From Candidatus Saccharimonadota bacterium (GTDB taxonomy: Bacteria > Patescibacteriota > Saccharimonadia > Saccharimonadales > Saccharimonadaceae): a stretch of DNA of 64,000 bases. The notes below the pieces were generated by a model. The model searched no databases. It saw only the letters and a list, made by a program, of their open reading frames with translations, and was not told the DNA's origin. The position numbers and the translations under genes are program-made. The stretch spans positions 1-64,000 of the forward strand of contig PBTC01000026.1 of the NCBI GenBank assembly GCA_002726935.1, in the 5' to 3' direction. Below, piece by piece: positions 25,224 through 58,617 of this stretch (position 1 is its first letter; each line of letters opens with the position of its first letter).

Positions 25224-25835
25224 GTGATTGCCATGAATAGTTTACAAGTCAGAAGTTCATTTAAAAGTAGAGCGCGGCAGGCTGGCGTCTCGCTCATCGA
25301 GCTCTCAATTGCTCTTGCCATTATTGCGGTGATCACGATCACCGGCATTGTATTTGCCACAGATGCATTGAAGGAGTCGCGAATCGGCTCCGAGGCAGCT
25401 CGGGTAAATTCAATCGTGATGAAAAGTCGAGCGGCTTTCCAAAACAGAGCATTGGCAAACCTGTCTGTAGCAGCCACCACCACGTTGGATGCTGCACGTC
25501 TGGGGGTGTTCCCCGCAGATATGCTGGATAAGCCTATTACTGACACATCCTTGGCTGCCACTGATGTCAAGAATCGCTGGGGTGGGAACGTCCAGATCTT
25601 CAGTAACCCAGGCCTTTCTGTAATGACCTTGGTGTACAACGACATTCCCCAGTCCGACTGCATTGAGTTTGTCAATCGAGTGTCAAGTCTTTTCTCTTAT
25701 GTGAGCTCCGGTGCGACAGTCGCGACTACCGGAGCCACCGCTATTAAAACGCCCACCGTAGCACTGAGTACTGCCAACACGCAAACCGCTTGTCAAGCAG
25801 GTGACAACATCCTGACTTTCGCTTTTTCGAAGTAA
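25224..25835 (+). CDS. pilS: PilS-type major prepilin, copy 1
   Basis: Prepilin cleavage/N-methyl motif QAG|VSLIELSIALAIIAVITITG; two Cys near the C-terminus. Start ATG 25224 or 25233. Confidence 0.85.
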   Translation: MIAMNSLQVRSSFKSRARQAGVSLIELSIALAIIAVITITGIVFATDALKESRIGSEAARVNSIVMKSRAAFQNRALANLSVAATTTLDAARLGVFPADMLDKPITDTSLAATDVKNRWGGNVQIFSNPGLSVMTLVYNDIPQSDCIEFVNRVSSLFSYVSSGATVATTGATAIKTPTVALSTANTQTACQAGDNILTFAFSK

Positions 25836-25849
25836 ACAATACCTGGGAA

Positions 25850-26509
25850 TTGCCCTATCTCAGGTTTACAAATTGGGTATTAATCTTGGAGAAAATGATG
25901 AATAGAAATGCAGTTTTTACGAAGTACCACGCGATCAAACAAAGGAAGTCTCAAGCGGGTGTTTCCTTGATCGAACTGTCAATCGCTCTTGCGATCATTG
26001 CCGTGATCACGATCACAGGTATTATCTTTGCTACCGACGCTCTCAAGGAATCTCGAATTGGCTCTGAGGCTGCCCGTGTCAATTCAATCGTAATGAAGAG
26101 CCGCGCCGCTTTCCAAAACAGAGCTTTGGCCAACTTGTCGGTGGCGGCTACTACTACGTTGGACGCCGCTCGATTGGGCGTGTTTCCTTCGGATATGCTG
26201 GACAAACCAATCACGGACACATCTCTTGTGGCAACTGATGTGAAGAATCGCTGGGGCGGTAACGTCCAAATCTTCAGCAACCCGGGCCTTTCTGTAATGA
26301 CCTTGGTATACAACGACATTCCCCAGTCTGACTGCATTGAGTTTGTTAATCGAGTGTCGAGCCTGTTCTCTTATGTAAGCTCAGGCGCGACAGTGTCTAC
26401 CACTGGTGCCACCGCTATTAAGACCCCGCTGTCTGATGCATCCGCAGCAAACATCCAGACTGCTTGTCAGACGGGTGATAATGTTGTGACTTTTGCGTAC
26501 TCGAAGTAA
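25850..26509 (+). CDS. pilS: PilS-type major prepilin, copy 2
   Basis: Nearly identical to copy 1 over most of the mature protein; likely start ATG 25895 or 25898. Confidence 0.85.
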   Translation: MPYLRFTNWVLILEKMMNRNAVFTKYHAIKQRKSQAGVSLIELSIALAIIAVITITGIIFATDALKESRIGSEAARVNSIVMKSRAAFQNRALANLSVAATTTLDAARLGVFPSDMLDKPITDTSLVATDVKNRWGGNVQIFSNPGLSVMTLVYNDIPQSDCIEFVNRVSSLFSYVSSGATVSTTGATAIKTPLSDASAANIQTACQTGDNVVTFAYSK

Positions 26510-26517
26510 GGTGGAAT

Positions 26518-26557
26518 GGTGCAAGGATTTTTGACCGTTGGTTTTTTTCCTTGCACC
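26518..26557 (+). terminator. Hairpin (GGTGCAAGGA / TCCTTGCACC) after tandem pilins; candidate attenuator/stabiliser
   Basis: 10-bp perfect arms 26518-26527 and 26548-26557, 20-nt loop with T run. Confidence 0.5.
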
Positions 26558-26576
26558 TATTTTCTAAAAACCAATT

Positions 26577-27569
26577 TTGTCCATTAGCTTCGGGAACACA
26601 ATGCTTGATACGGTAGATCTTTCTTTAGAACAAATGTTGGGGAACATTCCCGATATTCGTCTGGATCTCAAAAACCCAAAAGACTCCGTAGTATTTCCTC
26701 TTCCGGAGCGTAAGCCCTCTCGCACAACGGCTGAGATGCTTCCGCTGCTTGAACTTCTCGCGCAGAAGGCCGAGTCCGTAGCAAATCATTTTGGTTCAAA
26801 AAGTTTTTCGCTGTGCGTTGGTGAGTCTCGATATCGGGCTCAGCGGATTCGTGATGGCGTCTACAGCCTACGGCTCTGTATGAATGAGTGCCTGTCCCTT
26901 GAAGATCTTGAAATAGCCAAAGGATATCGCGACAAATTACTGGCGCCAGAGTTAAAGAGAAGTGGCGGGCTGGTTCTTATTTCGGGGCTTCCGGGCTCCG
27001 GCAAAACTACAACGCTCGCATCCACCATTTCCGGTCGACTGAAGACACTTGGAGGCTTTGGCGTAACCATTGAAGACCCCGTTGAGATGCCCGTTGCTGG
27101 GTTTCACGGGGAGTCTGGTTATTGCGAGCAAATGTCAATTGAGCCAGGAGAAACCTTTTACGACAAGATCGTGAACTCGCTTCGATGCTTCCCTTCGGGC
27201 GACACATCAATTCTCGCTTTGGGTGAGATTCGTGAGAATGATGCCGCGGCCGAGTTACTTCGTATTGGCATCGATGGCCACCTGGTGATGTCCACGATCC
27301 ATGCGAAAGGGCCAGTGGAAGCTATCCATCGCGTGTTGAGCATGGCTTCGCAGGGCGGCGAGATGAGTGCAAGAAGTCTACTGGCTAACAGCTTGAAGCT
27401 GGTCGTACATCAATCGATGTTGAACAACAAGCCTCAACTCACCGCGCTTGACGTGACCGACTCTGTTCGGTCAAAAATTTATAACGGAAATATCGATGGG
27501 CTTAAAGATGAAGTTGCTGCAACGCAGATTAAAATTCGAACAGACCAAGGCTATAGCCCACAGCGTTAA
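26577..27569 (+). CDS. PilT/DotB (TraJ)-family secretion ATPase
   Basis: LVLISGLPGSGKTTTLAST, ILALGEIRENDAA, VMSTIHAKGP. Likely start ATG 26601 (MLDTVDLS). Confidence 0.8.
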   Translation: MSISFGNTMLDTVDLSLEQMLGNIPDIRLDLKNPKDSVVFPLPERKPSRTTAEMLPLLELLAQKAESVANHFGSKSFSLCVGESRYRAQRIRDGVYSLRLCMNECLSLEDLEIAKGYRDKLLAPELKRSGGLVLISGLPGSGKTTTLASTISGRLKTLGGFGVTIEDPVEMPVAGFHGESGYCEQMSIEPGETFYDKIVNSLRCFPSGDTSILALGEIRENDAAAELLRIGIDGHLVMSTIHAKGPVEAIHRVLSMASQGGEMSARSLLANSLKLVVHQSMLNNKPQLTALDVTDSVRSKIYNGNIDGLKDEVAATQIKIRTDQGYSPQR

Positions 27570-28956
27570 GCGTTCAAGCGGCTTTGTTCTTGTCGAGCTT
27601 TCAATAGCTTTAGCGATCCTGGGGGTGATTTCAGCCGTCGGGATCAAGTTGTTTCTAGAAGAGTCTGAAAACCAGAGGGCGGAACAGCAGGGCAGGGTCC
27701 TGGCGTCTTATGGGTCCGCATTCGCGACCTATATGGCGACGTTCGCTGAGCGACTGAGAAACAATCAGCCAATCACGGTAACCATTGACAATCCCGCGCC
27801 TACACCCGACACCACAGTCGTTATTAACACTCCGAGGCGTCCAACGTTTGCTCAACTGACTGCGATTGGGATTTTGCCTGCCGGAGGCTCCGGGTTAAAT
27901 CTCTACGGCGATAACTACGTTTTTGCCGTTCAGAACGTAGATCCTTCATGCCCCGTTGGCGGCGTAACGGTTTGTGAGATAGAGGGCATAGTCGCTCTTT
28001 CTGGAACTGTTCGTGATTTTTCAGGAAACGCAAGCCACGCTTTGGCTGGTCAGGTCGCCTTGATTGCCGGCGATGCGGGGATTACGACACTCGCAACACC
28101 AGGCGTGATTACAGGCCCCTCTGGCTCATGGAATTTTCCTCATCCTAACGGGAACGTCCCAGCCTCTGTTGGAGTTAGATTGGGTGGGGGACTTGGAGGG
28201 CTTTCTGCTTATCTAAGGCGTGATGGGTCTGACTGGATGACTGGCCCTTTAAGGCTCGTTGATCCAGTCACGGGTGTTCGGCAGGATATTGTCGGAGCCG
28301 ATAGTATCGAGGGCTCCTCAATCACAACTGTTACCGGAAATATCGATTCGTTAACCTCAACCGCGGTTAATACACAAAATATTACGTCAGTAACCGGTTC
28401 GGTCACGGGGAATCTTTCTACCGGGTCAATAGACAACGCCGGAACTATTACGTCAACCGGTAATATTCGCTCAGTTGCCGACATCACCGCTGACCGTGAT
28501 TTGATTGCAACACGTTCCGTTGTTGCTCCTGACATTTATTTGACTGGGCGTAACCGTTGGCTGTCTCAGCTTTTACCGAATGTTGTTATTCAAGAGACCA
28601 ATTTGCTTGACATGCGCGTATCCACAGGACGGGTTACTAAGCCTGCTTGTGCTGCGGTCAATATTGGGGGTCGGCCAGGGGCGGCAGGTGCGCCTCGTAT
28701 TTACGCCTACCCGGTCTCGGGCGTGGTGGGGACTGTTACAGACGTTAGCGGTCAAATTGTGACAACCGGCGGAGTTGACAATGTGGAAATTGATAACACT
28801 AGACTCGCCCTAGGTTCATTTGACGTTCAGGTTCAAGACAACGGGGTTGAGTGGGTTGTCTCATATGAGACGCTCGCCGAATCGGCTGCGAACGGTGGGA
28901 CCTCTTATAACAATCAGGCTTTTGTGTTGGTTCAAATTGGGTGCTCTTATAACTAA
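27496..28956 (+). CDS. pilV: PilV-like minor pilin/tip adhesin
   Basis: Prepilin motif SSG|FVLVELSIALAILGV, long Thr/Val/Gly repeat stalk, distinct C-terminal domain; overlaps end of the ATPase gene. Confidence 0.7.
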   Translation: MGLKMKLLQRRLKFEQTKAIAHSVKRSSGFVLVELSIALAILGVISAVGIKLFLEESENQRAEQQGRVLASYGSAFATYMATFAERLRNNQPITVTIDNPAPTPDTTVVINTPRRPTFAQLTAIGILPAGGSGLNLYGDNYVFAVQNVDPSCPVGGVTVCEIEGIVALSGTVRDFSGNASHALAGQVALIAGDAGITTLATPGVITGPSGSWNFPHPNGNVPASVGVRLGGGLGGLSAYLRRDGSDWMTGPLRLVDPVTGVRQDIVGADSIEGSSITTVTGNIDSLTSTAVNTQNITSVTGSVTGNLSTGSIDNAGTITSTGNIRSVADITADRDLIATRSVVAPDIYLTGRNRWLSQLLPNVVIQETNLLDMRVSTGRVTKPACAAVNIGGRPGAAGAPRIYAYPVSGVVGTVTDVSGQIVTTGGVDNVEIDNTRLALGSFDVQVQDNGVEWVVSYETLAESAANGGTSYNNQAFVLVQIGCSYN

Positions 28957-37283: not shown

Positions 37284-37302
37284 TAAAATCGCAGCAAAAA
37301 AG

Positions 37303-37328
37303 AAAGCCGCCCTAGGGCGGCTTTTTTT
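37303..37328 (+). terminator. Rho-independent terminator
   Basis: aaagccgcc-ct-agggcggctttttttc. Confidence 0.85.
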
Positions 37329-37746: not shown

Positions 37747-38022
37747 GTTAGATCCACTATTTCTGCAATGAAACTATTACATCACCGAAGGTTTTGTATT
37801 TATCAATTGAAGAAGGGTGGCTTTATACGTCAATCTTTTGTCTGGACTTAAAGTATCACTTTAAGTTGCGCTGATCAAGGTTGTCACTCCATAAATCGGA
37901 GATTTATTTTAGCGGCTCTATTTCATCACGGATCAACGTTCGCGGATCTTCAGTGCTTTTTCTTGTTCAACTTTTCTTTGAGCTTTACAGCCTGGCAATC
38001 AGAATAGTTTTATTGATTAAAC

Positions 38023-39099
38023 ATGGTTGAACGAAAAGTGAAAAACGTAGCACTAGAGAATCAAGCAGCAGGCGACGTAGGAGCAGCGCTCATTGGTGAA
38101 AGCGGTCGAGTCCGTGCCTCTGACAAGCGCATGATCAACGGTAAAACCGACGTAAATCAATTGGTTCCCTTCAAGTACGGTTGGGCCTGGCAGATGTATC
38201 TCGATAGCTGCACACAACATTGGATGCCACAGGAATTCCATCTGGAAAAAGATGCTTCTGCTTGGAATAAGGCTCCTGAGGGACTCAAGGATTTAGTGTT
38301 GTCCACAGCCGGTTACTTTGTGCATCAGGCTGACCTATGCTCCGACGCCCCGTCGCTGGGTGCTTATCGTCACATCACTGCCCCTGAGTGCCGGCAGTAC
38401 ATTCTTCGCCAAACCTTCGAGGATGCCAACCATGCGCACGCCTATGAACACATCATTGATTCGTTCGGTGCTACTGAGTCTGAAGCATTGGATGCATATT
38501 TAGCTAAGTGCGCAGACCAAAATCACTTGACAATGTTTGAAGCCGTGGTTTCACCAATGGTTCAGTCCAGCTTCTCTACTGGAGAACTATCAAATGATTC
38601 CAAGTTTTTAATTGGTATCGCAGCGCATTTCTGCATCTCTCGCGGTGTTCATATGGCCTCCGGTTTGGTTGCTGCAGGCTCATTGAATGAACATTCTGGA
38701 ATGGATACCACTGCCGAAATTTTCCGAACCATTTATCGCGACCGACAAAATCATGTCGCCTTCGGTCGAAATGTTTTTAATGCGATGGTGAACGAAAACC
38801 CGGCAATACTTAACTCCGACGTGAAGCTTCAAATTAGAGGCTTGATCATCAAGTCCGTTGAGCTTGAGCGTCAAGTGTTGACGGGCATATCCACCGCTGG
38901 ATTTTCAAAGCATACCAATGCTGAAATTGACGCGCATATTTGTGCCACGGCCAACAATATTTCATTGGGCCTTGGATGCGATGCTCTTTTCCAAACCAAG
39001 GTTGTTTCACCGGTTGCCTGGGCAGCAGAGCATGCATCACAAAATGCAGGCTCTCAGATGCAAGCCAAGGCCTCCAAAGAGTCCCTGTCTTGGGACTAA
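38023..39099 (+). CDS. NrdB-like class I RNR beta paralogue with lost metal ligands
   Basis: Full-length ferritin-like NrdB alignment to the next gene; WMPQEF, FEDANHAHAY, YRDRQNHVAFG, C-terminal tail LSWD. See findings. Confidence 0.8.
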   Translation: MVERKVKNVALENQAAGDVGAALIGESGRVRASDKRMINGKTDVNQLVPFKYGWAWQMYLDSCTQHWMPQEFHLEKDASAWNKAPEGLKDLVLSTAGYFVHQADLCSDAPSLGAYRHITAPECRQYILRQTFEDANHAHAYEHIIDSFGATESEALDAYLAKCADQNHLTMFEAVVSPMVQSSFSTGELSNDSKFLIGIAAHFCISRGVHMASGLVAAGSLNEHSGMDTTAEIFRTIYRDRQNHVAFGRNVFNAMVNENPAILNSDVKLQIRGLIIKSVELERQVLTGISTAGFSKHTNAEIDAHICATANNISLGLGCDALFQTKVVSPVAWAAEHASQNAGSQMQAKASKESLSWD

Positions 39100-39118
39100 G
39101 TAGTAGGGGTTTTATAAA

Positions 39119-40435
39119 ATGCAAATCGAACAAGAAGGAAGTAACAATATGCGCAATCTTTCATCAATGAACTACGCTTCACCTTGGGAAGACTCACCCT
39201 TGGCAAGTCGCCTGCTAGGCGGTGGATCGGATGTTGAGGTTGACCCGATTGAAAATCAACAAGCACTCGCGCCTCGCACTTTTTCACCTGCTGCTGAGCT
39301 GCCCGTGTTCCAGGTGCCGCAGGTCGCTCAAAAAGCAATTGAGTCTATTTTCGCCGTGCAGGCAGAAGAGCCTAAGATGGACAGCTTGATGCTGCCAGAG
39401 CAGCCCTCCGAAGTCTCGGAGGCAAGCTTCGTGGACAACACCATGCAGCGTATGATCAATGGGAACATTAACGCTAAAAAAGAACAGAGCTCGTATCGCT
39501 GGTGCAAAGACCGGTACATGGCCGGTTGCAGCAATCATTGGATGCCTCAAGAAGTTAACATGGACATCGATGTGGCCCAGTGGAAAGCCGGTCTACCCGA
39601 AGGTCAGGTTCGTTTGGTCAAGCGTGTTTTGGGATTCTTCTCTACCGCGGACTCCTTGGCGGCCAATAACATCGTGTTAGGCACAGCTCGTCATTTTTCA
39701 TCCAAGGAAGTGCGTCGCTATTTGAAGCGTCAAGCCTTCGATGAAGCGATTCATACGCATGCTTACCAGTACATTATTGAGAGCCTGGGTATTCCAGAAG
39801 CGGAAACGTTCAACGCTTACAACGAGATTCAAACGATTCGCGCAAAAGATGAATTCTTGATTCCTTTCATTGACACGTTGAGTGATCCTGAATTCAAAAC
39901 GGGTACCTTCGAGAATGACCAGAAGTTCCTGCGCAGCATTATCATGTTCGGCGCTGTGATGGAGGGCATGTTCTTTTATGGTGGATTCGCGAATATTTTT
40001 GCGTTGGCCAGACAAAATACACTGCCAGGTTCCTCCACGCAGATTCAGTTGATCGCACGTGACGAGGCCTTGCACAGCAGCTTCGGGATTGATGCCGCCA
40101 ATCTAATCAAGCACGAGAACCCTCAGCTTTGGACCGAGGAATTCAAGGCTGAAATTCGAGGGCTATTTAGGAAGGCTGTGGAATTGGAAATCGACTTCAT
40201 TCGAGAGATGATCCCCGAGCCAATGTTCGGCATCAGCGCGACTAGCCAAGAAGACTACATCAAGTTCATCTGTAATCGTCGTTGCAACCAAATTGGGATC
40301 GAGGTTCTTTATCCAGAGATTACCAAACATCCTTTGCCATGGTTGAGTGAAATGATGGACCTAAAGAAAGAGGGAAATTTCTTTGAAAAACGCGTCACAG
40401 ACTATTCTTCTGCTGGAATGCTCTCCTGGAATTAA
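39119..40435 (+). CDS. nrdB: Class I ribonucleotide reductase beta subunit with complete ligand set
   Basis: TADSL (D), FDEAIHTHAY (E..H...Y), MEGMFFY (E), RDEALHSSFG (E..H); spacings +31 and +34 as in E. coli NrdB; tail MLSWN. Confidence 0.9.
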   Translation: MQIEQEGSNNMRNLSSMNYASPWEDSPLASRLLGGGSDVEVDPIENQQALAPRTFSPAAELPVFQVPQVAQKAIESIFAVQAEEPKMDSLMLPEQPSEVSEASFVDNTMQRMINGNINAKKEQSSYRWCKDRYMAGCSNHWMPQEVNMDIDVAQWKAGLPEGQVRLVKRVLGFFSTADSLAANNIVLGTARHFSSKEVRRYLKRQAFDEAIHTHAYQYIIESLGIPEAETFNAYNEIQTIRAKDEFLIPFIDTLSDPEFKTGTFENDQKFLRSIIMFGAVMEGMFFYGGFANIFALARQNTLPGSSTQIQLIARDEALHSSFGIDAANLIKHENPQLWTEEFKAEIRGLFRKAVELEIDFIREMIPEPMFGISATSQEDYIKFICNRRCNQIGIEVLYPEITKHPLPWLSEMMDLKKEGNFFEKRVTDYSSAGMLSWN

Positions 40436-40446
40436 ACGTAAATTTC

Positions 40447-40635
40447 ACTTAAGAATGAGACTACGACATTAAGAATGAGACTGTTTTCAGTTAAGAATGA
40501 GACTGAGTTTTTAAAGTTGTAGAAAGCAAAAAAGCCAACCCTAGTGGTTGGCTTTTTATTTATGTGTATATCAATGTCTCTTAATAATTTGACTTGGACT
40601 TAATATTTGAACTAAAAGACCTTAAGAATTGGACT
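40447..40635 (+). repeat. Left-end TnsB-site-like repeats (six copies)
   Basis: CTTAAGAATGAGACT (40449-40463), ATTAAGAATGAGACT (40469-40483), GTTAAGAATGAGACT (40491-40505), CTTAATAATTTGACT (40580-40594), CTTAATATTTGAACT (40599-40613), CTTAAGAATTGGACT (40621-40635); ~19-22 bp spacing within each cluster. Confidence 0.75.
40529..40557. terminator. Bidirectional-looking terminator inside transposon left end
   Basis: aaaaagccaacc-ctagt-ggttggcttttt, A tract and T tract on both sides. Confidence 0.8.
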
Positions 40636-42306: not shown

Positions 42307-43656
42307 ATGAACAATTCCGTAGGAAGCTTGATTTCTGACAAAGATGTTTCTAGCTTCGTCCAAAAAGGAAAAAAGATGGATGTGTATTTTGATAGAGGCC
42401 TGGATGTTGACACAACCCCAGAAGGATTCTCGACGCCATCGAACCGCGATGATTTTAAGTATTCCCCTAGAGAGTACCCTCAGGTAATTAAATATATGGG
42501 GTCCAAGGCTGGCATCCTTGATTTCATTGGGCAAGGTTTAGCGGCTGTGCATGCACAGGGGCGGCCGTTAGTTGATCTTTTCGCAGGTGCATGCGCTATA
42601 TCTGGTGGATTTGGACATATGGGCCAAGTTATTACTAATGATATTCAAAAGTATTCAGCAGTTATCGCGAGCACCTATCTTAAACGTGCAAAACACATCG
42701 GCATGTTTGATATAGTCGCGTTAGCTCAGCCTATAGCTGATCGTGTTTTGGAGAGTCTTCCGAAAAATCTTTCATATCCTACGAAAGCGACGTCACTAAA
42801 AGCTTTTAATGAAATCGAGGGCAGAAATAGGAAATTAATCCACAAAGAGTTTGATACATCTCATCATTTGTTTACTCGCATGTACTCGGGAACATGGTGG
42901 AGCGCCGAACAATGTGTCTGGATCGATGCTTTAAGAGAGGTTTTAGATGGTCTGCTCGATGCAGGTGAAATCGAGGAGCCGGATTTCAACCTAGGGTTAA
43001 CCTGCCTTCTCAGTGCAATGGCATATACAAGTCAAGGGACTGGGCACTATGCACAATACAGGGACGCCAAGACGCTTGAAGGCATGGCTGACATTCTTAA
43101 ATATCGCCAAGCGTCAGTCCCCGTCATATTTAATAGAAAATTTAAGCTACTTTTAAAATGGCATCTCGATAATGTTGTAGATCGGGACAACCAGATGCTT
43201 TCTTTAGATTATAGAGACTGCTTAAAAAATATTAAGAGCTCAGTCGTTTACGCTGATCCACCCTATGCGTTTGTTCACTACAGTCGTTTTTACCATGCTA
43301 TGGAGACTTTGGTTAAATATGACTATCCACAAATACAGCATATGCGTGGACAAATAGTAAAAGGACGTTACCGGTCAGAAAGGCACCAATCGCCTTTCTG
43401 CATAAAAACACAAGTTAATAAAGCCTTTTCAGACATGTTTGATGGCGTAAAGGAGTCTGGCAGTGACTTGTTGTTGTCGTACTCGAACACTGGGATGATT
43501 GATATTGAAGTTCTCATTGATCTTGCAACGGACCATTTTGGAAGTGATTACAAGGTATGGGTCAACAACATCGACCACACTCATATGACAATGGGGCGAA
43601 GTAAAGATCGATCTAGGAAGGTCGAGGAGTCTTTAATTATCGCAAAAAAGTGTTAA
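42307..43656 (+). CDS. D12-class N6-adenine DNA methyltransferase
   Basis: KYMGSKAGILDFI, DLFAGACAISGGF (motif I), VVYADPPYAF (DPPY motif IV). Possible in-frame starts at 42307 or 42376. Confidence 0.85.
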   Translation: MNNSVGSLISDKDVSSFVQKGKKMDVYFDRGLDVDTTPEGFSTPSNRDDFKYSPREYPQVIKYMGSKAGILDFIGQGLAAVHAQGRPLVDLFAGACAISGGFGHMGQVITNDIQKYSAVIASTYLKRAKHIGMFDIVALAQPIADRVLESLPKNLSYPTKATSLKAFNEIEGRNRKLIHKEFDTSHHLFTRMYSGTWWSAEQCVWIDALREVLDGLLDAGEIEEPDFNLGLTCLLSAMAYTSQGTGHYAQYRDAKTLEGMADILKYRQASVPVIFNRKFKLLLKWHLDNVVDRDNQMLSLDYRDCLKNIKSSVVYADPPYAFVHYSRFYHAMETLVKYDYPQIQHMRGQIVKGRYRSERHQSPFCIKTQVNKAFSDMFDGVKESGSDLLLSYSNTGMIDIEVLIDLATDHFGSDYKVWVNNIDHTHMTMGRSKDRSRKVEESLIIAKKC

Positions 43657-43657: not shown

Positions 43658-44245
43658 TTAGTCTTCGACATATAGACTACGCTTTATTCCAAAAGCTATC
43701 ACTGGACACCCCGCGGATCCGGCACCTAACAACTTTGGCTTTAATTTGTCAAAGTGAGTGGTCGAGTTTCCATAAGAACTGCTTCTTCCGAGCGAATTAA
43801 AGATTTGTTGTAACTCTGTCGATCGGGTAATTATGATTCCGACACTGATTGCTTTCAAATCAAAAAGTAGTCGAAAGTTAGTCAGATCACGGTCAAAAAA
43901 AGGATCTTTGTTGTTCCATTCTATTTCGAGGGCAATATGATTCTTATAGCAATCAACTTTGTGCGTTGGTGTCTCGCGTTCAATCCCATCAACTTGTTGT
44001 TTGGTATCGAATTGCTTTTCAAACCAGCCACGTTCGTATAGAAAAGAATCGAGTCTTTGAGCAACTAAAGATTTGCTACCTCCACCTACTGTGATGTGGC
44101 TCTTGAGCAACCGAAAATCGGTTAGCAAATTGATTAGGTCATTCCACTCATTGGGAAAATCTTTTTCTAATATTGCAGTCGCGTGATTCCATTCAAGAAT
44201 TTCATAATTTTCAAGAATAAATTCCGGTAACGCATCTATGGCCAT
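43658..44245 (-). CDS. BglII/BstYI-like type II restriction endonuclease
   Basis: VDCYKNHIALEIEWNNKDPFFDRDLTNFRLLFDLKAISVGIIITR resembles the BglII-family catalytic region; convergent with the methylase. Confidence 0.7.
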   Translation of the reverse strand: MAIDALPEFILENYEILEWNHATAILEKDFPNEWNDLINLLTDFRLLKSHITVGGGSKSLVAQRLDSFLYERGWFEKQFDTKQQVDGIERETPTHKVDCYKNHIALEIEWNNKDPFFDRDLTNFRLLFDLKAISVGIIITRSTELQQIFNSLGRSSSYGNSTTHFDKLKPKLLGAGSAGCPVIAFGIKRSLYVED

Positions 44246-44494: not shown

Positions 44495-44776
44495 ATGAGC
44501 AAGATCACAGGATTGGACAAAATGCAACGCGAACTGAAAATGGCACAAGAGGCACTTGCTGAGCTGGGAGGCGAATTAGGAAGTGTCTCGATGGATCCTT
44601 TTGACCCTGCAAGCATCGATCAAGCAATCAGTGCGATGGAAAGGATTATTGATGCCAAAGTCGCAACCTATGAGAACAATGAATTCATCAACTCGCTTGC
44701 TCAAGACATGAAAGAAAATTATCGTTCAATGATCCTTGAGAGCGCTGCTGAAGCCCGATTGAAGGGTGATGAATGA
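44495..44776 (+). CDS. Small alpha-helical protein, putative partner of the TIR-like protein
   Basis: 93 aa, overlaps the next gene by 4 bp (ATGA). Confidence 0.55.
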   Translation: MSKITGLDKMQRELKMAQEALAELGGELGSVSMDPFDPASIDQAISAMERIIDAKVATYENNEFINSLAQDMKENYRSMILESAAEARLKGDE

Positions 44777-45678
44777 CAGCTTCACTTGACCTATTTCGGC
44801 AGATTAACAATGCGGTCCTCGATCTACAGTCTTCGGATTTACAGTCATACGCAGCTCATTTGAAAAGACTTGGGCGTCTTCTACAACATCCCGATCTTGA
44901 GACTTCAAACGCTACCCTGACCCAGAATCTTGACCTAGATTCCTTCATCAAGGCAAGTGAAGCCACCCAAGGAGGTATGGTTGGGAGTGCAACACTGCAG
45001 TGGCCAGAGGACGATCTTCAAATCCTAGGTCTAAAACTACTTCTTATTCTGAGGTTTTCGGAGAATCCAGAATTCATGACCACAATCGGTTATCAATTCT
45101 TCTACACTGGCAGCAGAAAAATCATGAGCGGTGTGCATGCAATCACCAGCCAGATAATCATTCCCTTTGTACGCGACTACAAGGATTATGTGGAGGCTCA
45201 AGGTCGCATTTCACCCAGCTTGGTATTGCCAATGTCAAACAAGGTATTCATTGTTCATGGACATGACGGGGAGTCCCGAGAGACGGTAGCTCGCTTTCTC
45301 GGAAATATTGGTTTTGATCCAATAATTTTGCATGAGCAAGCCAATAAAGGCCGAACCATTATTGAGAAAGTTGAGGCCAACGCAGATGTGGGCTTCGCTG
45401 TGGTGTTGTTAACCCCTGACGACCTAGGGCGAGCAAAAGGCGACTCGGACCTAGAGCCCAGGGCGCGGCAGAACGTCCTGCTTGAACTCGGATACTTCAT
45501 GGCTCGTCTCGGTAGAGATAAGGTTTGTGCGCTTCGAAAAGGGGATGTATCGATCCCCAGTGATTTTGCCGGCGTAGTTTGGGAGGCCATGGACGAAGCT
45601 GGCGCTTGGAAACAGAATTTGGCTCGTGAACTTGGTGCCGCCGGCCATGCTGTTGACTGGAATAAGGTTATGCGCTGA
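44773..45678 (+). CDS. TIR-like (CAP12/PF10137-type) nucleotide-binding effector candidate
   Basis: KVFIVHGHDGESRETVARFLGNIGFDPIILHEQANKGRTIIEKVEANADVGFAVVLLTPDD...ARQNVLLELGYFMARLGRDKV. Confidence 0.75.
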   Translation: MTASLDLFRQINNAVLDLQSSDLQSYAAHLKRLGRLLQHPDLETSNATLTQNLDLDSFIKASEATQGGMVGSATLQWPEDDLQILGLKLLLILRFSENPEFMTTIGYQFFYTGSRKIMSGVHAITSQIIIPFVRDYKDYVEAQGRISPSLVLPMSNKVFIVHGHDGESRETVARFLGNIGFDPIILHEQANKGRTIIEKVEANADVGFAVVLLTPDDLGRAKGDSDLEPRARQNVLLELGYFMARLGRDKVCALRKGDVSIPSDFAGVVWEAMDEAGAWKQNLARELGAAGHAVDWNKVMR

Positions 45679-45682
45679 TGTT

Positions 45683-46336
45683 ATGTGTGAGCTTTTGATT
45701 TGGACTGTTAGTAATATACGTTGGCCGGAGACGATTGGCGCGCTAGCTTCGATTGTGACTGCTGCAATTGCGTTTTGGGCTTTGCAAACTTGGAAGCATC
45801 AGGACAAAGCCAAGGTCAAGGCGGAGTTTCTAGACGCATTAATCGAGACTGCTCACGCTTACATCGCGGAAATTCATAAACCAATTACGTTGTTAGAGAT
45901 GTCGAAGATCGGCATGAAAGCCAATGAGCCAGTCGGAAAGTCCAGGGATGCTGGTGATCTGCTTGTTCAGGGCGCGATTGCCTACATTAACAAACATGGT
46001 GAAGATGACAGTAAGCGCTTGTCAGAAGTGCTGGAGTTAATTCAACCCAATGTAGTTAAGCTACGGTCGCTGGCAGCGAAGGGACAGGTCTTTAAGTTCG
46101 ATAGCTATGAAAAGTGCTACAGCGCCGTTGCTACACTGACATGGCATTTCGATAGGCTTGAGGCATTCATGGCTGTCGTTGGGTCACCTACTTGGAATTG
46201 GGACCATCCTGAGGTTTTGAATCTTCTAAATGACGCGATTGCAATGGACCCAGAGGACCTCAGGGCTAGCATAAAGAAAAACAACGTTGAACTGCTTGAA
46301 TTTGCTCGTTTGACCTACGAGACAACCTACGGCTAG
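45683..46336 (+). CDS. Membrane-anchored helical protein (third gene of TIR-like cluster)
   Basis: N-terminal TM (TIGALASIVTAAIAFWALQTW); downstream start near 45683 follows the TIR-like stop. Confidence 0.55.
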   Translation: MCELLIWTVSNIRWPETIGALASIVTAAIAFWALQTWKHQDKAKVKAEFLDALIETAHAYIAEIHKPITLLEMSKIGMKANEPVGKSRDAGDLLVQGAIAYINKHGEDDSKRLSEVLELIQPNVVKLRSLAAKGQVFKFDSYEKCYSAVATLTWHFDRLEAFMAVVGSPTWNWDHPEVLNLLNDAIAMDPEDLRASIKKNNVELLEFARLTYETTYG

Positions 46337-48116: not shown

Positions 48117-48842
48117 TTGGTAGCCAGCGGAAGCGGCGAGCAAAAAAACTTTGAATGGATCTCGAAGATGAAGTCAGCGAATTTAGAAAACTGGATTGAG
48201 ACAGCGTTGCCTGAGCCTGTAAGACGGCTCAAGCGGTCGCGCTTGGGCGTTCAGATATCCCGGTTTCATTCAAGAAAAAATCAGAAGTCGTGGGGCCTGG
48301 AGAGCTCCATTGAACTTGATTATGCGCATTTCCTGGAATGGTCTGCCGAGGTTGTTCGGTTTGTGCCGCAACCCATGGAGATTGAGATTTTGCAGCACGG
48401 TCGCAGGAAAGCTTACGTGCCTGATTTTTTGCACATCAGCACCAAGATGGATCGCACGGTCACGGAGATCAAACCACAGGGTTGGGACAAGTCGCCTTTC
48501 CTGGTCGAAAAGTATGAGGCCTGCAAGGTTGAGCTGGCATTCCAAGGAATCAAGTTCCAGGTGCTCACTGATGCAGATATTCGTCGCGACGAGCTCCATA
48601 GAAACCTTCGCCATCTTTACCCCAGTTACAAAACGTCCACCCCCGAGCAGGTATTGGCAGTGTTTGCGGGACTTTCGAGGATGAACAACCGTGCAACGGT
48701 GGGTGAATTGATGGCATTGCCGAACCCTCCCACGTATGCAGCATGCGCGGCTTTCGCTTATGAGAACTGGGTGGATATTCATTCAAAGCCATTTGGCCTG
48801 AGTACCGTTCTAGAGATTGGGGATGAGCATGCAGATCACTGA
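48117..48842 (+). CDS. tnsA: TnsA-like transposon endonuclease
   Basis: ESSIELDYAHFLEW, YVPDFLHI, VTEIKPQG (E-D-ExK core). Alternative ATG at 48168. Confidence 0.85.
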   Translation: MVASGSGEQKNFEWISKMKSANLENWIETALPEPVRRLKRSRLGVQISRFHSRKNQKSWGLESSIELDYAHFLEWSAEVVRFVPQPMEIEILQHGRRKAYVPDFLHISTKMDRTVTEIKPQGWDKSPFLVEKYEACKVELAFQGIKFQVLTDADIRRDELHRNLRHLYPSYKTSTPEQVLAVFAGLSRMNNRATVGELMALPNPPTYAACAAFAYENWVDIHSKPFGLSTVLEIGDEHADH

Positions 48843-50988
48843 CCTTGGGTTGCCAAAGTTGTATTCGATCTACGGGATGAGGGGTGAGGAGTATCTCATT
48901 TGCTACAGCACCGAGGACCGTATCCGTCTGCAGGCAAGAACAACTCGTCACGTTCTGACGCACACGCTTGAAAAATTTCGTGAGCTAGTACGAAGTGGTG
49001 AGCTTGTATTGATGAACGAGGCAGGGTTGCCTGCAATCCATTCAGTGGCGCATTCGTTGAGCGAGACACAGCGTCAACGGTTTGATCGTCGATGTCATTA
49101 CGTCAACGCAGTCATGGCAGAACACTCTGGCCGCCTATCCCGCGCTCACTTCGATGTGGTGATTCAAAAGGCAGCCACGATCATCAACGATGAGGACCCT
49201 CCGACATATTCAACAGTTGCCAGGTGGCTCAATAGCTTCAAAAGCAGAGGGGAAATTAATTTACCCCTCATCGATCGTCACGCATACATTAACAAACGCG
49301 CTGACCGCATCAACACGCTTGTCGACAAGATCATTAGCGTGGTGATTGAGGAGGTATTACTCAAACCTGAATGTGTTCGTGAAAGCTATGTTTACGAGCT
49401 GATCAAGGCCAAGGTCTATGAGCAGAACGAACTTCTTGGCAAAGACGACTATCTTTCAGTTCCGTCTTTAAACACTGTTCGCAATCGGATTGACCGAATT
49501 GACGTCATGCACAAGATCGAGCGTCGTCAAGGGAGGTTCGCAGCACTTCGTCTGAACCAATACGGCAGAAAGATTCTCGTTGAAGACTATATCGGCTCCA
49601 GGGTGGAGATGGACAGCAATCATCTAGATGTCTTTGTTTGGGATGATTTCTTAAAAGTCGCTGTTCGCCCCTTGCTGACCTTGGTTTTGGATGTGCCATC
49701 ACGCTGTGTATTGGGTTGGGAGTTGTCCTTAAACACGATATCTGCTGCGAAGACGATGGGGGCTCTTCGTGATGCTATGAGCAGGGACGAGTTCTGTGAG
49801 ACGCGTGCTATTCCCTACCAGCTATACATTGATGGTGGCTGTGAGTTTGCCAATGAGTCACTTGAGGTCTCCTGCGATGTCCTAGGAATTACCGTTCTCA
49901 AATGCTCCCCCAAGAGCCCGAACCAAAAGCCCCATGTAGAGAGGATATTTAAAACCCTCAATGACGGTTTTTTTCATAACCTGCCTGGTACAACCAAGTC
50001 CAATCCGAGACATCGTGGTGATTACGAATCTGAGGATAGGGCGACTTTCAATATGGAAGCATTACGTTCCCTTTTCAGGAAATACATTCACGAGGTTTAC
50101 CACCACACAACCCATGATGCACTCGGCATGACCCCCCTTGATAAATGGAGGGAGATGGCCAAACACCGTCCACCACGCGTTCTGAGTGGTGGCGAGGCAG
50201 ACCATTGTTTCTTGATCCCGAGAATGGTGAGTATCAACAAGGGTCGGGTCCAGGCTTTCAATTTGCAGTGGACTGGGCCAGGCCTTCCCACCTTACAAGA
50301 GCGCCTCTCTAGAAGCAGGGTGAAGTCAAAGGTGAAGCTCTTGATTGATCCAGACCAAATTGGAACAGCATATGTAATCGATCCGACAAACACTGTAGCC
50401 CCCCAGGCTGTGCGGTGTGTGGAAGATGAAAAGTTTCATAAATTATCTTTGCGTCAGTGGAAATGGATCTGCGATAGAGCCAGATTAAACGCCACAGCAT
50501 CTACATTGGCTGATCCATTCAGGCTTTCAAGAGCGGTGTTAGAAATTCAGCGGGAAATTGCTGAAGCAACACGCACTGACAAAGCCAAAGGTGAGCGCAA
50601 GCGAGCTGCACGAAAAAATGCTGCGAAGTTTGCCGAGATCAACATTGCACCCGCCAGTGTCAGCCCGGGCACCGCGATGATCGCTGCTGTTGCGAAATCG
50701 AAGAACGTTGAAGCTGTCCCTGCGTTGGCTTTGTCTGGTCTCGTTACGTTTGATCCGTCTATTGCCAAGACTTCCATCAACGAATCTTCGAGTGGCTTTC
50801 AGATGAGTGAGCCACGTGCACTTTTACTTGGTGTTGCACAACCAGACACCTCTCCAGCTTCACCTCCTAACCCGACCTATTCACCCGCAAAGCAAGGAGA
50901 GCAGGGTGAAGGAACGGCGTCCCCCGATGCTTTGCAGGAAGCACCACTTTTTAGTTCAACCGTCTATCTAAGGAAGAAAAATGACTGA
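48823..50988 (+). CDS. tnsB: TnsB-like DDE transposase
   Basis: EMDSNHLDVFV (D), LYIDGGCEFAN (D), KPHVERIFKTLN (E); rve-type core. Start overlaps tnsA (ATG 48823/48829). Confidence 0.9.
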   Translation: MSMQITDLGLPKLYSIYGMRGEEYLICYSTEDRIRLQARTTRHVLTHTLEKFRELVRSGELVLMNEAGLPAIHSVAHSLSETQRQRFDRRCHYVNAVMAEHSGRLSRAHFDVVIQKAATIINDEDPPTYSTVARWLNSFKSRGEINLPLIDRHAYINKRADRINTLVDKIISVVIEEVLLKPECVRESYVYELIKAKVYEQNELLGKDDYLSVPSLNTVRNRIDRIDVMHKIERRQGRFAALRLNQYGRKILVEDYIGSRVEMDSNHLDVFVWDDFLKVAVRPLLTLVLDVPSRCVLGWELSLNTISAAKTMGALRDAMSRDEFCETRAIPYQLYIDGGCEFANESLEVSCDVLGITVLKCSPKSPNQKPHVERIFKTLNDGFFHNLPGTTKSNPRHRGDYESEDRATFNMEALRSLFRKYIHEVYHHTTHDALGMTPLDKWREMAKHRPPRVLSGGEADHCFLIPRMVSINKGRVQAFNLQWTGPGLPTLQERLSRSRVKSKVKLLIDPDQIGTAYVIDPTNTVAPQAVRCVEDEKFHKLSLRQWKWICDRARLNATASTLADPFRLSRAVLEIQREIAEATRTDKAKGERKRAARKNAAKFAEINIAPASVSPGTAMIAAVAKSKNVEAVPALALSGLVTFDPSIAKTSINESSSGFQMSEPRALLLGVAQPDTSPASPPNPTYSPAKQGEQGEGTASPDALQEAPLFSSTVYLRKKND

Positions 50989-51925
50989 GTCAGAACAACA
51001 CGCAGTGTCCTGTTTTTCAGGATTAGTAATCAGACACCCATCGTTCCAACACGCATATAACAGGATCTTGGACGTCATTGAGTTCAATAAGATTAACCAG
51101 GCACCAGAGCCCCAGAGTGTGCTTATTCTCGCCGAATCAGGGTGTGGGAAGACGACTTTGTTTGAGGACTTGCAAAATAACTTGCCGGGTCGACATGAAG
51201 TTCAAGAGGGCATCGACATGGTTACAAAGATTCCCTTTTTCAGTAGCGCCATCCCAACCGATGCAACACCCAATTCCATGGCCCAACAATTATTTGCATC
51301 GATGGGTGTTGGAGATCGGAACAAGCACGCAGCCGAGCAGCGGATCAAGAACGCTCTGAAGAAAGCTGGCACTCAAGCTATTTTTTATGATGAATTGAAC
51401 AATATTGCCGGCAGCAAAACTCCCCACAAGATTTCTCTGGCACGTGGGTGGCTCAGAGATTTGATCTCCTCATCAGGGGTAATGATCGTGGGGTTTGGCT
51501 TGCCCGAGTGTGAAGACATCTTCTTGAGTGAAGCCCAGGTTCACAAGAGATTTCCGTGGATTCTTAGCATGGAGAACTTCAAGTTCGATTTGAGCCCCAA
51601 CTCTGAGTTTTGTGTTGTTGTGAAGACCATGGAGCAGGCCCTAGGCCAGTTCCGTGACCTGTACGCAAGCATCGAACCACGTATGAATGAGAGTTTTCTC
51701 ATTTCGTTGTATGCCACAACAGGTGGCTCAATCAATGCCCTTAAAAAGCTTTACGAGGGAGTCCAGATGGAGACTTTTAAAGGTGACCACATCCTCAATA
51801 CAGAAAAGTTTTCGCAGGTTGCAGATGTGATGAGGTTTCCGAGTTCGATTGTTCGAAATGGCTTTAGAGAAGATCGACAGATTTGTCTGAACATGATCGC
51901 AAATCGCCAATTGCATTCTCATTAA
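50981..51925 (+). CDS. tnsC: TnsC/TniB-like AAA+ ATPase
   Basis: ILAESGCGKTTLFEDL Walker A, AIFYDELNNI Walker B, overlaps tnsB. Confidence 0.9.
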   Translation: MTESEQHAVSCFSGLVIRHPSFQHAYNRILDVIEFNKINQAPEPQSVLILAESGCGKTTLFEDLQNNLPGRHEVQEGIDMVTKIPFFSSAIPTDATPNSMAQQLFASMGVGDRNKHAAEQRIKNALKKAGTQAIFYDELNNIAGSKTPHKISLARGWLRDLISSSGVMIVGFGLPECEDIFLSEAQVHKRFPWILSMENFKFDLSPNSEFCVVVKTMEQALGQFRDLYASIEPRMNESFLISLYATTGGSINALKKLYEGVQMETFKGDHILNTEKFSQVADVMRFPSSIVRNGFREDRQICLNMIANRQLHSH

Positions 51926-51939
51926 GGGGAGTAAGCCCG

Positions 51940-54102
51940 ATGCTATCCATACCTATGCCGCAAAATGAAGAAAGTCCGAAAAGCTTATTGTCGCGATACG
52001 CGGAGAAAAACTTCTTCTCGAATGTTCGCCTTGCATTGAATGTTCGCTCGGAAGATGCTGGAAGCAATGCCCGCTTTCTTTTTGGTGGATTGAAAGAGGT
52101 TAAAAAATTTGCCTCTGGAGTTGAAAGCTCACTTAAGGTGGACCTAGATAAATGGTTTTATGGCCAGGCAGCCGGCTTCACAGATGAAAGCCCAGTGATT
52201 TGGAATGGGTGTGAAATTCCCCGAGCGTTCTTTGTATCAGGAAAGGCTAGGCTCTGTCCGTGTTGTATCAAAGGCGAGATTATTCACCAAAGCGCTGACT
52301 TCAGTTTCTTTTCTTCATGCCCTGTCCATCAGGTGAAGTTACATGAGGCATGCCCAAACTGTAAAAAGCCTATTTCGTGGAATCGAGGTTCGATTCAATC
52401 TTGCCAGAGCTGCAATTTTCAGTTCAAGGCGCTGGCTGAAGTACCAACCGATAAGCCCGCTGAGACCACATTTTTAGAATGGGTGCGCGCAGGTGACGCG
52501 ACCTTAGTCAACCGATGCCTGAGGTTCTTGAAGGCATTGCGAGGCTTTTACGCCAAAGAGGTATTCCAGGCCGGAGTTTTGTTGGAGGTGGCGGTGAAGC
52601 TTCACCGAGGGGACACTGCCGGTCTGATCGAGTCGCTGGCGGCTTTGTATCCCCCGGGCATACTTGCCAATCGCTTGGTCCTGGCACCTTTGTTCCTAGC
52701 CTGTGGAGACGGCATGGAAGAGATCAAAGCACTCCTCAGGCCACTACTAGCCGGCAGCCAGGAACAATCAAGGGCTGCCGGGGCCTTGTCAACTCTGAAT
52801 AGAAAGACGTTGCGCCTGGAGGAGGTCGAGTTTGCGTTGAACATTACCGCTCAGACTAGGCGCAAGCTCACAGCAAGTGGCTTTCTGAAGGATGTGCAAG
52901 AGAAGGGTGCTCGCAGGCAAATCGACACAGCATCTTTGCTCGATTTCTTCGCTATGGTTGAAAACGCCAAGCTTCGATCTGTTGCGCAACATGCTGAGAA
53001 CTGGGAGCGTTTTAGCCCCAACCTGGTTAACAACGCATTCTCTCTTCGAGAAGGTAAGGCGTGTGTGACCGACCACGATTGGTCAGATGGGTGTTCGGGA
53101 TTCTGGATCAAGTCTGAGATTTCAAAGCATGAGGCTCCCGATGATGGATTATTGACCATCGATGAATTCGCCCAAGTTGCAAAAACATATCCGGATGCGA
53201 TTCGCCGAGTGGTCAAGGCAGGCTTGGTTTTGCCTGACCTCAAAAAAAATGGGAAAGCAGGGGTCAAGTTTTCGGCAAAGGCAGTTGACTCGTTTTGCAA
53301 GCAGTATTGTTTTTCGAGCGAGATTGCTCAATCAGTCAAGCAAGGTAGAACCATCATAGGCGCAATTCTTTCCAGTGCTGGAGTTGAGCCAGTGTCAGGC
53401 CCTAAGGTGGATGGTGCGCTTGTACCACTCTATAAACGGTCAGATCTTGATGGCTTGGATCTCCTGTCCTTGGTTGAAAAAAGGGATTTCAAAAGCAAGG
53501 CAGGTCGTAAGAAGGAGGGCACGGTACTCTACGACAGGGAGACCTGGATGTCATCCAAAGAGGTATCTGCTCTATTTGGCTTCTGTCCGGTTGAGCTTAG
53601 TTCAGCCGTTACTCAAGGGCACATCAAGGTCGGTGTCCCCCCGGGGCGCGAGAGTGACAACTGCCGCTACTATTTTCGTGAAAGCGTACTCGCTTTTAAG
53701 GAGAGATTGCAGACTTCACTCGTTGTCGATGATGCGTATGTTCAGCTCGGGATCTCCAAAGCGGAGTTTTACAAGCGATTTGTAGCATCGAATTTTGTGA
53801 CGCTCATCAAAATTGGCAAGCATTCCTGGATCACAAGAGATGATTATCGTCTCGTGGAAGAAGACTGCCAGCTTTACATTGGTACCGAGACTGCCACTCG
53901 GTTGACTGGTGCACCTCACAGGCACTTTCGCAACCTCATCAACACCGACAGGATTTCAAAGGTCTCGTCCAAAGAAACCATAACTGCGGGATTCTTCGAT
54001 TTGATTCGAAGGCGGGATCTCTCAATCCATGCTGTGATGGCGCCTGGCTACACACTGAAGTCCAATCCTGAAGATGAAGTGAAGCACTTAGTCCCAAATT
54101 AA
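51940..54102 (+). CDS. tniQ: TniQ/TnsD-like target-selection protein
   Basis: Start ATG 51940; zinc ligands LCPCCI...CPVH...CPNC...CQSC typical of TniQ N-terminus; long C-terminal extension. Stop overlaps the first right-end repeat. Confidence 0.85.
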   Translation: MLSIPMPQNEESPKSLLSRYAEKNFFSNVRLALNVRSEDAGSNARFLFGGLKEVKKFASGVESSLKVDLDKWFYGQAAGFTDESPVIWNGCEIPRAFFVSGKARLCPCCIKGEIIHQSADFSFFSSCPVHQVKLHEACPNCKKPISWNRGSIQSCQSCNFQFKALAEVPTDKPAETTFLEWVRAGDATLVNRCLRFLKALRGFYAKEVFQAGVLLEVAVKLHRGDTAGLIESLAALYPPGILANRLVLAPLFLACGDGMEEIKALLRPLLAGSQEQSRAAGALSTLNRKTLRLEEVEFALNITAQTRRKLTASGFLKDVQEKGARRQIDTASLLDFFAMVENAKLRSVAQHAENWERFSPNLVNNAFSLREGKACVTDHDWSDGCSGFWIKSEISKHEAPDDGLLTIDEFAQVAKTYPDAIRRVVKAGLVLPDLKKNGKAGVKFSAKAVDSFCKQYCFSSEIAQSVKQGRTIIGAILSSAGVEPVSGPKVDGALVPLYKRSDLDGLDLLSLVEKRDFKSKAGRKKEGTVLYDRETWMSSKEVSALFGFCPVELSSAVTQGHIKVGVPPGRESDNCRYYFRESVLAFKERLQTSLVVDDAYVQLGISKAEFYKRFVASNFVTLIKIGKHSWITRDDYRLVEEDCQLYIGTETATRLTGAPHRHFRNLINTDRISKVSSKETITAGFFDLIRRRDLSIHAVMAPGYTLKSNPEDEVKHLVPN

Positions 54103-54802: not shown

Positions 54803-56131
54803 ATGACAAAGCGAGCCGTGACGGCTACTGAGGTGCGACTGGAAGTCTTCTTGGAGCAAGGCCCTGGGATTGCAAACATACCAGTAGGGACCTTGGTCTG
54901 GGACCATGACCTTCGCGTCACAGCGTTTCAGTGGAGCAATGAAGCCATTGAGTCAGGGTTGAACCTGTCGCCTATCGTGATGCCAAATAAACCAGGCACC
55001 TCTTATGCAGACCCCGAACCGTTCTTCGGAATCCACCCGCTGTTTTCAGATTCAATACCGGATGGCTTCGGCCTACCCTTGATGAACAGGGGCCTGGCCG
55101 AAGCTGGACACAATTTAGCTGAAATCAACGCTTTGGACCGGCTTGCGTGGACTGGCAAACGCGGGGTAGGTGCTCTTACTTACAATCCGGAGGCCGACGC
55201 CGATGTTAAGCCTTTGGTAACTACCTCTTTAGATACTTCGTCATTTGCCATCTGCGCGGAGGATGCGAATTTTAAGTCTATACCAAAGCAAGCCATCCTT
55301 TCCGGCGGTTCAACTCTAGGCGCTCGGCCCAAGTTCTGGGCCTCTGTTGCGCCCGACAAGAGCAAGGTTGTACTTGGTGACTCACACAATGTTGAGGCAG
55401 GCTTTGTGCCTAGCCTTTTGAAGTTTGCACCTACAGGAGGAGACTTAAACGAACCATATGTCGAAGCGGCGTGCTTAGAGCTTGCTGCGAAATATGGTGT
55501 CATTGCCGCAGCCGCTGAACTGCTCCACTATTCTGGCGGGGCAGCTCTGGCCGTCCATCGTTTTGATCGCTTGCCCAATGGGGACCGCCTCCACACCCAA
55601 ACTGTCGCGGCCTTACTTGGAATCAACTTTCGTGAGCCAAATCTTGACTACAAAAACCTCGTCCAGATTGCCAGGAAGATAGGAAAAGATGTAGACGTCG
55701 AGCGGATATACCGTCAGCTTTGTTTTAATGTAGCCCTGTCCATGCGGGATGACCATGCGAAAAACTTCTCCTTCTGTATGGATTTTAAAGGCCAGTGGTC
55801 TCTGTCTCCCGCTTACGATTTGTGCCCCTCTGTCGGCTTGGGTAGAACTGGAGAACACACGACCTCTGTTAACGGTAAGGGTATTAATATTAGCCGTGGC
55901 GATTTGATGTGCTTCGCTGAATCCATTGGTCTGTCTTCAAGCTTGTTTCAGGAGGCTATCGACAACGCCCGGGCTGCAGCGGCCGAGTTTGAAGCCCTCT
56001 CTATAAGTTTTGGGGCCACAAAGACTAGGTCGAAGCAATGGGCAAATGCTTTCAAGACTATTGACGCTCATCTCAGGCCTGTCATGATCCCGTCCGCTGG
56101 TCTTGTCAGGTCACCAGGTAAATCTAATTAG
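54803..56131 (+). CDS. hipA: HipA-like serine/threonine kinase toxin, no HipB identified
   Basis: SMRDDHAKNFSFCMD and SLSPAYDLCPS catalytic/metal motifs; N-terminal couple_hipA-like FFGIHPLFSDSIPDGFG. Confidence 0.8.
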   Translation: MTKRAVTATEVRLEVFLEQGPGIANIPVGTLVWDHDLRVTAFQWSNEAIESGLNLSPIVMPNKPGTSYADPEPFFGIHPLFSDSIPDGFGLPLMNRGLAEAGHNLAEINALDRLAWTGKRGVGALTYNPEADADVKPLVTTSLDTSSFAICAEDANFKSIPKQAILSGGSTLGARPKFWASVAPDKSKVVLGDSHNVEAGFVPSLLKFAPTGGDLNEPYVEAACLELAAKYGVIAAAAELLHYSGGAALAVHRFDRLPNGDRLHTQTVAALLGINFREPNLDYKNLVQIARKIGKDVDVERIYRQLCFNVALSMRDDHAKNFSFCMDFKGQWSLSPAYDLCPSVGLGRTGEHTTSVNGKGINISRGDLMCFAESIGLSSSLFQEAIDNARAAAAEFEALSISFGATKTRSKQWANAFKTIDAHLRPVMIPSAGLVRSPGKSN

Positions 56132-57910: not shown

Positions 57911-57975
57911 AGTAAATCCTTCTTTGTGGAATTAAATTAATAATACCACAAACAAAATACAAAAGCAATATAACC

Positions 57976-58596: not shown

Positions 58597-58617
58597 GTTT
58601 CTTCCTGAACCTAAGGA

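Follow-up and report, generated by a model that had tools for sequence, protein, structure and literature searches.

Adjacent nrdB paralogues on a probable proteobacterial plasmid, and a similar pair in phages, may encode ribonucleotide reductase R2 heterodimers with divided labor

Two adjacent genes on contig PBTC01000026.1 probably encode an obligate ribonucleotide reductase R2 heterodimer (beta.beta') in which the labor is divided between the partners, and from their sequences we put the probability of this reading at about 0.7. R2 is the small subunit of ribonucleotide reductase, the enzyme that produces the building blocks of DNA. The upstream protein (hereafter, beta') has lost metal ligands of NrdB, and the downstream protein (hereafter, beta) has lost two otherwise nearly invariant blocks that beta' retains. 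The window analysed here is the stretch of 64,000 nt that covers positions 1 to 64,000 of the 72,979-bp contig.

Residues lost and kept in the two adjacent proteins

The upstream gene (38023..39099, + strand) encodes a 358-aa NrdB paralogue, the pseudo-beta, and the downstream gene (39119..40435, + strand) a 438-aa catalytic NrdB. Both ORFs are open, with a gap of 19 bp between them, and both proteins exceeded the Pfam Ribonuc_red_sm cut-off of 33.6 (145 bits upstream, 263 bits downstream). They share 29% identity over 321 aligned columns (BLASTP, E 3e-47), so they are paralogues, in line with the NrdB pair reported in the sequence-only reading of this DNA, but not the end-to-end match it described, as the downstream protein carries about 75 extra residues at its N-terminus. 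A good ribosome-binding site (AAGGAAG) precedes the ATG at 39149, which for this reason is the probable true start of the downstream gene rather than 39119. On the 5' side of the pair lies a palindrome, ACTTAAAG-TATCA-CTTTAAGT (37846..37866, no strand assigned), the sole copy in the window and a possible operator. Terminator-like hairpins, found by consensus scan only, end the gene 5' of the pair (37300..37327, + strand) and follow the pair on its 3' side (40529..40557, + strand), and the pair bounded by them appears to be a two-gene unit of its own.

Residues were called from a MAFFT alignment with 97 NrdBs from chromosomes, plasmids and viral contigs, a set that includes the phage beta described below and one partial duplicate. 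We assume the E. coli NrdB numbering for the ligand columns (D84, E115, H118, Y122, E204, E238, H241). The upstream protein has Ala103 at the first-ligand position (D84; 38329..38331), Asp134 for the E115 ligand with His137 and Tyr141 kept at H118 and Y122 (38422..38445), Arg207 at E204 (38641..38643), and Arg241 at E238 with His244 retained at H241 (38743..38754, all on the + strand). The corresponding residues of the downstream protein are D178, E209, H212, Y216, E282, E316 and H319, which together with the C-terminal Y429 are those of a functional class I R2. The alignment bore out the earlier calls of Ala, Asp, Arg and Arg upstream and a complete set downstream, and the spacings of +31 and +34 given with them were correct.

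By sequence family and fold, beta' is an R2 protein (145 bits against the cut-off of 33.6; fold TM 0.82). Its predicted structure is a complete R2 fold (pLDDT 82.5), with C. trachomatis NrdB (4m1i and 4m1h, TM 0.82) as the best structural matches. The full set of six metal ligands (four carboxylates, two His) is missing, the positions being occupied by A103, D134, H137, R207, R241 and H244. Arg207 and Arg241 may fill the empty metal site by charge, which would allow folding without metal. The residues that we take to be equivalent to W48, E52 and D237 of E. coli NrdB (W67, E71 and D240 of beta') are all retained.

The C-terminal tail of beta', KASKESLSWD (39067..39096, + strand; alignment columns 617, 623 and 625), keeps the docking residues L355 and W357 and ends in LSWD (LSWN in beta). 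The retention of both His (H137, H244), the Tyr (Y141) and the LSWD tail was thus seen correctly from the sequence, but tail retention is only partial: the radical-transfer Tyr, presumably Y356 of E. coli NrdB, is replaced by Lys349 in beta', at a column that holds Y429 in beta and Tyr in 99% of the 97 NrdBs. Beta' therefore does not have the C-terminal Tyr of a functional class I R2.

Beta' could also be read as a metal-free radical subunit of the class Ie type, which uses a DOPA radical: carboxylate ligands are lost, the Tyr and both His are kept, and the basic residue at the last Glu position recalls the Lys of R2e (PMC11846895). We consider this most improbable. The substitutions are A/D/R/R, whereas class Ie retains the first Asp and has Q/S/K or V/P/K (PMC11846895), the tail lacks the radical-transfer Tyr, and the protein derives from a betaproteobacterial-type NrdB rather than from class Ib. 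Neither the class Ie residue pattern nor an nrdI in the operon was found, and NrdI had no match anywhere in the assembly.

The lost ligands, a very long branch and the failure to find orthologues could also point to a decaying duplicate, a reading that is very unlikely and already largely refuted. The upstream gene has no internal stop; when an NrdB was allowed to drift neutrally to 38% identity (substitutions only), stops averaged 10 and none of the 300 runs was free of them. The earlier argument that the open frame speaks against simple decay is upheld by this comparison, and decay would account neither for the kept tail nor for the selective retention of two blocks, nor for the purifying selection on the phage analogue described below.

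These blocks are the N-terminal arm (N-arm), RV..DKRxINGxTDVNQLVPFKYKWAW, also written R..DK..IN...DVNQLVPFKYKWAWEKYL, and the helix B-C block, TYRHITAPECRQYLLRQ, whose turn and start of the E115-carrying helix read YRHITAPECRQYLLRQ. Both are near-invariant in about 96 single-copy relatives. Beta' reproduces them with hardly a letter changed (RVRASDKRMINGKTDVNQLVPFKYGWAW and YRHITAPECRQYILRQ): its N-arm block (residues 29-60, RVRASDKRMINGKTDVNQLVPFKYGWAWQMYL; 38107..38202, + strand) retains 19/21 conserved positions versus 4/21 in beta, and its helix B-C block (residues 115-129, YRHITAPECRQYILR; 38365..38409, + strand) retains 11/12 versus 5/12. In beta, the alignment and column counts revealed a degenerate N-arm (residues 104-134, ...MINGNINAKKEQSSYRWCKDRYM; 39428..39520, + strand) and a degenerate B-C block (residues 190-204, ARHFSSKEVRRYLKR; 39686..39730, + strand). 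The downstream copy had been called intact, which is true of all its catalytic residues but not of these two blocks, whose loss had been missed.

Loss between the partners was reciprocal across 221 alignment columns with conservation of at least 90%. Inside the two blocks, beta' kept 30/33 conserved columns and beta 9/33; outside them, beta' kept 62/188 and beta 144/188. Columns kept by one partner only were divided 22:1 (beta':beta) inside the blocks and 5:87 outside (Fisher p 8e-18, an optimistic value because the blocks were selected after viewing the alignment). Among 48 non-redundant NrdBs of diverse origin, both motifs were present in 20, neither in 24, the arm only in four and the B-C motif only in none, a co-occurrence that is inflated by shared ancestry, as the relatives are not independent. 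The window beta and the phage beta both fall within a betaproteobacterial clade whose members carry both motifs, and therefore these betas have lost them. Because the module is kept by nearly all single-copy relatives, beta would be inactive as a homodimer and would need beta' as its partner.

A second pair in Pseudomonas putida phages

Nine phages of Pseudomonas putida, vB_PpuM-Aura and its relatives (about 200 kb), encode a 261-aa 'hypothetical protein' (e.g., WYW00938.1) between nrdA and nrdB. This pseudo-copy starts with RVSLVDKRIFNGKADVNALLPLRYPWAY, contains VYRATTAPEVRQRFLR and ends in DTLTWD, without the ligand set or the Tyr. With 21.6 bits on Ribonuc_red_sm it fell short of the cut-off, which accounts for its lack of annotation. 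Its gene stops 2 bp before the phage nrdB. The adjacent phage NrdB has all ligands, begins just before the NHW motif with the N-arm gone, and has IRHIKNRNCRHYLFRQ as its B-C block. In the phage Peetri, the only one of four phages read to show this, an HNH endonuclease gene lies between nrdA and the pseudo-nrdB (3736-4437 of its locus, L129).

In the phage pair, columns kept by one partner only were divided 15:5 (pseudo-copy:beta) inside the blocks and 5:116 outside (p 3e-12). The profiles of which partner keeps what were correlated between the plasmid and phage pairs (r 0.41), and 0/220 circular shifts reached this value, a fairer test because the blocks had been chosen post hoc; without the N-arm the correlation was 0.28 (0/199 shifts). 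Among four phages, dN/dS was 0.07-0.11 for the pseudo-copy (dS up to 0.27), 0.02-0.04 for beta and 0.05-0.13 for nrdA, and therefore at least the phage pseudo-copy is selected as a protein. A gene split into an N-half and a C-half was considered for the phage pair and rejected, as the phage beta has the whole core from the NHW motif on and the pseudo-copy has its own docking tail; the window pseudo-copy, moreover, covers the entire fold.

Beta' could instead be a free-standing regulator or decoy that uses its LSWD tail to dock on the host NrdA, either blocking the host enzyme or retuning it, with beta acting independently. Retention of the docking tail alongside loss of the ligands and the radical-transfer Tyr would suit such a role, as would a plasmid without its own nrdA, but it leaves unexplained why the catalytic beta of both pairs lost the blocks, and the phage pseudo-copy sits between the phage's own nrdA and nrdB. 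We regard it as unlikely. The 'regulatory pseudo-beta' offered earlier as an alternative is weakened in the same way, because the catalytic copy has itself lost conserved blocks and seems dependent on a partner.

In E. coli beta, the N-terminal part is close to the dATP-inhibited alpha-beta interface. The module might accordingly be a surface for down-regulation by dATP, shed by beta to escape inhibition, with beta' as a by-product or a brake. The phage NrdA carries an ATP cone, and in E. coli, inhibition by dATP creates an interface of alpha and beta that involves alpha's N-terminal cone (PMC11447812). This explanation is less likely again than a regulator, as the near-invariance of the module suggests an essential, not purely regulatory, role.

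Origin, rarity and genomic setting of the pairs

The closest relatives of the window beta are chromosomal nrdB genes of Burkholderiales and other Betaproteobacteria (55-60% identity), and the N-arm of beta' is almost identical to that of betaproteobacterial nrdB. Descent of the pair from eukaryotic R2 (Rnr4/R2_e2 families) did not agree with these betaproteobacterial best relatives. In a tree of betas only, Limnobacter joined the window beta (94/89) and Chromobacteriaceae relatives joined the phage beta (80/81), both betas being on branches about 8-9 times the median length; one origin of both betas was not rejected by the AU test (p-AU 0.295). A joint tree grouped the upstream protein (P0001) with P0003, a result that is likely long-branch attraction because the branches were at the limit of 10 changes per site. 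Odd residues shared by the two pairs were no commoner than in unrelated pairs. Two separate origins are likelier for the plasmid and phage pairs, and a single one is possible.

Tandem pairs elsewhere, which the sequence-only reading had asked for, were found in analogous form in the phages, but no orthologous pair of the window type was detected in PLSDB, IMG/VR or GTDB r220 at the sensitivities used. The upstream gene had no orthologues in viral contigs or in GTDB r220, the latter searched by exact 8-residue patterns that would miss divergent ones. Because no orthologue of the pair was found, selection on the upstream gene is suggested by its open frame and the phage analogue. A second nrdB copy was found at 0/80 chromosomal betaproteobacterial nrdB loci, and no other tandem pair in 80 + 16 + 6 viral loci. 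The 80 chromosomal loci and all inspected plasmid NrdBs were single copies with the N-arm/B-C module.

Several candidate pairs did not hold. L144 and L145 turned out to be intact NrdBs with the N-arm, and the candidate on Azospira pAZI09 was a single intact-looking nrdB, which stands in one row (55643-63948) with an aerobic R1-like gene, an anaerobic nrdD-type gene, a short nrdD-annotated ORF and an activase. The match on a Chitinibacter bivalviorum plasmid (NZ_CP058630.1, 2487-3670) is an nrdB broken across several frames in a poor record, and the frame breaks are probably sequencing error in that record.

The source assembly is assigned to a small-genome phylum (congeners 0.6-0.9 Mb). The tetranucleotide profile of the contig compared with the other contigs of the bin gave 0.40-0.67, versus 0.71-0.88 among the others themselves, and an NrdB as close to the upstream protein (E 1e-45) was found in 0 of 388 other genomes of the phylum. 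The contig encodes a type II/IV secretion ATPase and a TraG-type coupling protein; the latter, the only one of the two compared, resembles those of conjugative plasmids of Pseudomonas, Stenotrophomonas and Cupriavidus. Its foreign composition, and genes of proteobacterial type in a phylum whose genomes are small, make it probable that the contig is a proteobacterial (betaproteobacterial) plasmid placed in the wrong bin, and therefore the NrdA on contig C45 of the assembly is probably not the partner of the pair. The absence of nrdA, noted earlier for the window, holds for the entire 72,979-bp contig.

Other genes on the contig include, at 48117-54102 and 54803-56131, a Tn7-like tns set, in which a TnsA-like gene and a TniQ gene bracket two more tns-like ORFs (assigned by their sequences alone), followed by a HipA-like gene. 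A D12-type adenine methyltransferase gene (42307-43656, + strand) is convergent with a BglII-type restriction endonuclease gene (43658-44245, - strand), likely forming a BglII-like restriction-modification pair. A CAP12/Pycsar-type TIR protein (PADLOC candidate system PDC-S35) is encoded within 44495-46336, preceded by a small ORF and followed by another ORF, possibly as a defense unit. Pilin-like ORFs start at 25224, 25850 and 27496 (within 25224-28956), the first two being near-duplicates.

A divided R2 and its relation to known systems

In the heterodimer that we favor, beta, which has kept the Tyr, the radical-transfer Tyr at the C-terminus and the di-metal site, would make the radical. 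Beta' would pair with beta, lend it the N-arm/B-C module as a dimer-stabilizing or NrdA-contacting surface (these two roles being natural guesses), and add a second docking tail. The radical would be fired by beta only, into the element's own NrdA in the phage pair and into the host NrdA in the plasmid pair, the latter fitting a contig that carries no nrdA. The beta/beta' heterodimer proposed earlier has gained strong indirect support from the reciprocal loss, the phage pair and the selection on the phage pseudo-copy, and the interpretation as a whole is partly supported.

We hold it somewhat more probable than its opposite that reciprocal loss on proteobacterial mobile elements, probably more than once, made an obligate heterodimer out of a homodimeric NrdB. 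This would be the first beta.beta' ribonucleotide reductase so diverged to come from a bacterium or phage; a literature search, which was not exhaustive, found no description of one. Ribonucleotide reductase acts asymmetrically, substantial contact with beta2 being made by a single alpha at a time in the E. coli complex whose structure is solved (PMC11551348), and a natural pair with each function on one partner would show which parts of beta a dimer needs in a single copy only. The pairs also point to an uncharacterized near-invariant module at the N-terminus of the NrdB type that is common in Betaproteobacteria and occurs in Chlamydia, giving it a testable role, and they suggest a function for an unannotated phage gene. 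For annotation, they warn that 'hypothetical' or 'nrdB' genes of such pairs may be essential partners.

Pairs of this kind are already known from yeast and Apicomplexa; what looks new is the occurrence in phages and on a plasmid, together with loss on the catalytic side. In yeast Rnr2/Rnr4, a canonical R2 works with a paralogue unable to form the di-iron centre (reviewed in PMC3824934), and the plasmid pair likewise combines a canonical R2 with a metal-site-deficient paralogue beside it whose NrdA-docking end (L355, W357, LSWD) appears to be kept. Unlike the eukaryotic, separately derived yeast pair, the plasmid genes are bacterial and adjacent, and the catalytic partner has also lost blocks. 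The apicomplexan R2_e2 proteins, including Plasmodium PfR4, are without the radical-forming residues and the C-terminal Tyr and keep the docking end, and PfR4 interacts with R2 and R1 (PMC3824934). Beta' resembles them in its kept docking end and lost C-terminal Tyr, but R2_e2 is an old eukaryotic clade, not on a mobile element and with no reciprocal loss reported.

Among bacteria, Candidatus Liberibacter asiaticus also has a second nrdB without an active site, a short form speculated to form heterodimers (PMC5154197). That form spans 125 aa, duplicates the 3' end and shares over 99% identity with the long form, whereas beta' is diverged and full-length. PMC5154197 further cites an E. coli strain in which a truncated beta gives a beta.beta' showing half-site reactivity. 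The class Ic-type Chlamydia NrdB and its relatives in the PDB (1syy, 4m1i, 6y2n) gave both proteins their best structural and sequence matches; the Chlamydia NrdB is single-copy with a full metal site, Glu and Phe, whereas in the downstream copy the latter two are Asp and Tyr, the class Ia residues. The vB_PpuM phage pseudo-copy, like beta', keeps the N-arm and the B-C block, has a docking tail (LTWD) and lies beside an nrdB that lost the N-arm and B-C block; it differs in its much shorter length (261 aa), the loss of all ligands and the Tyr, its own nrdA alongside and a probably separate origin.
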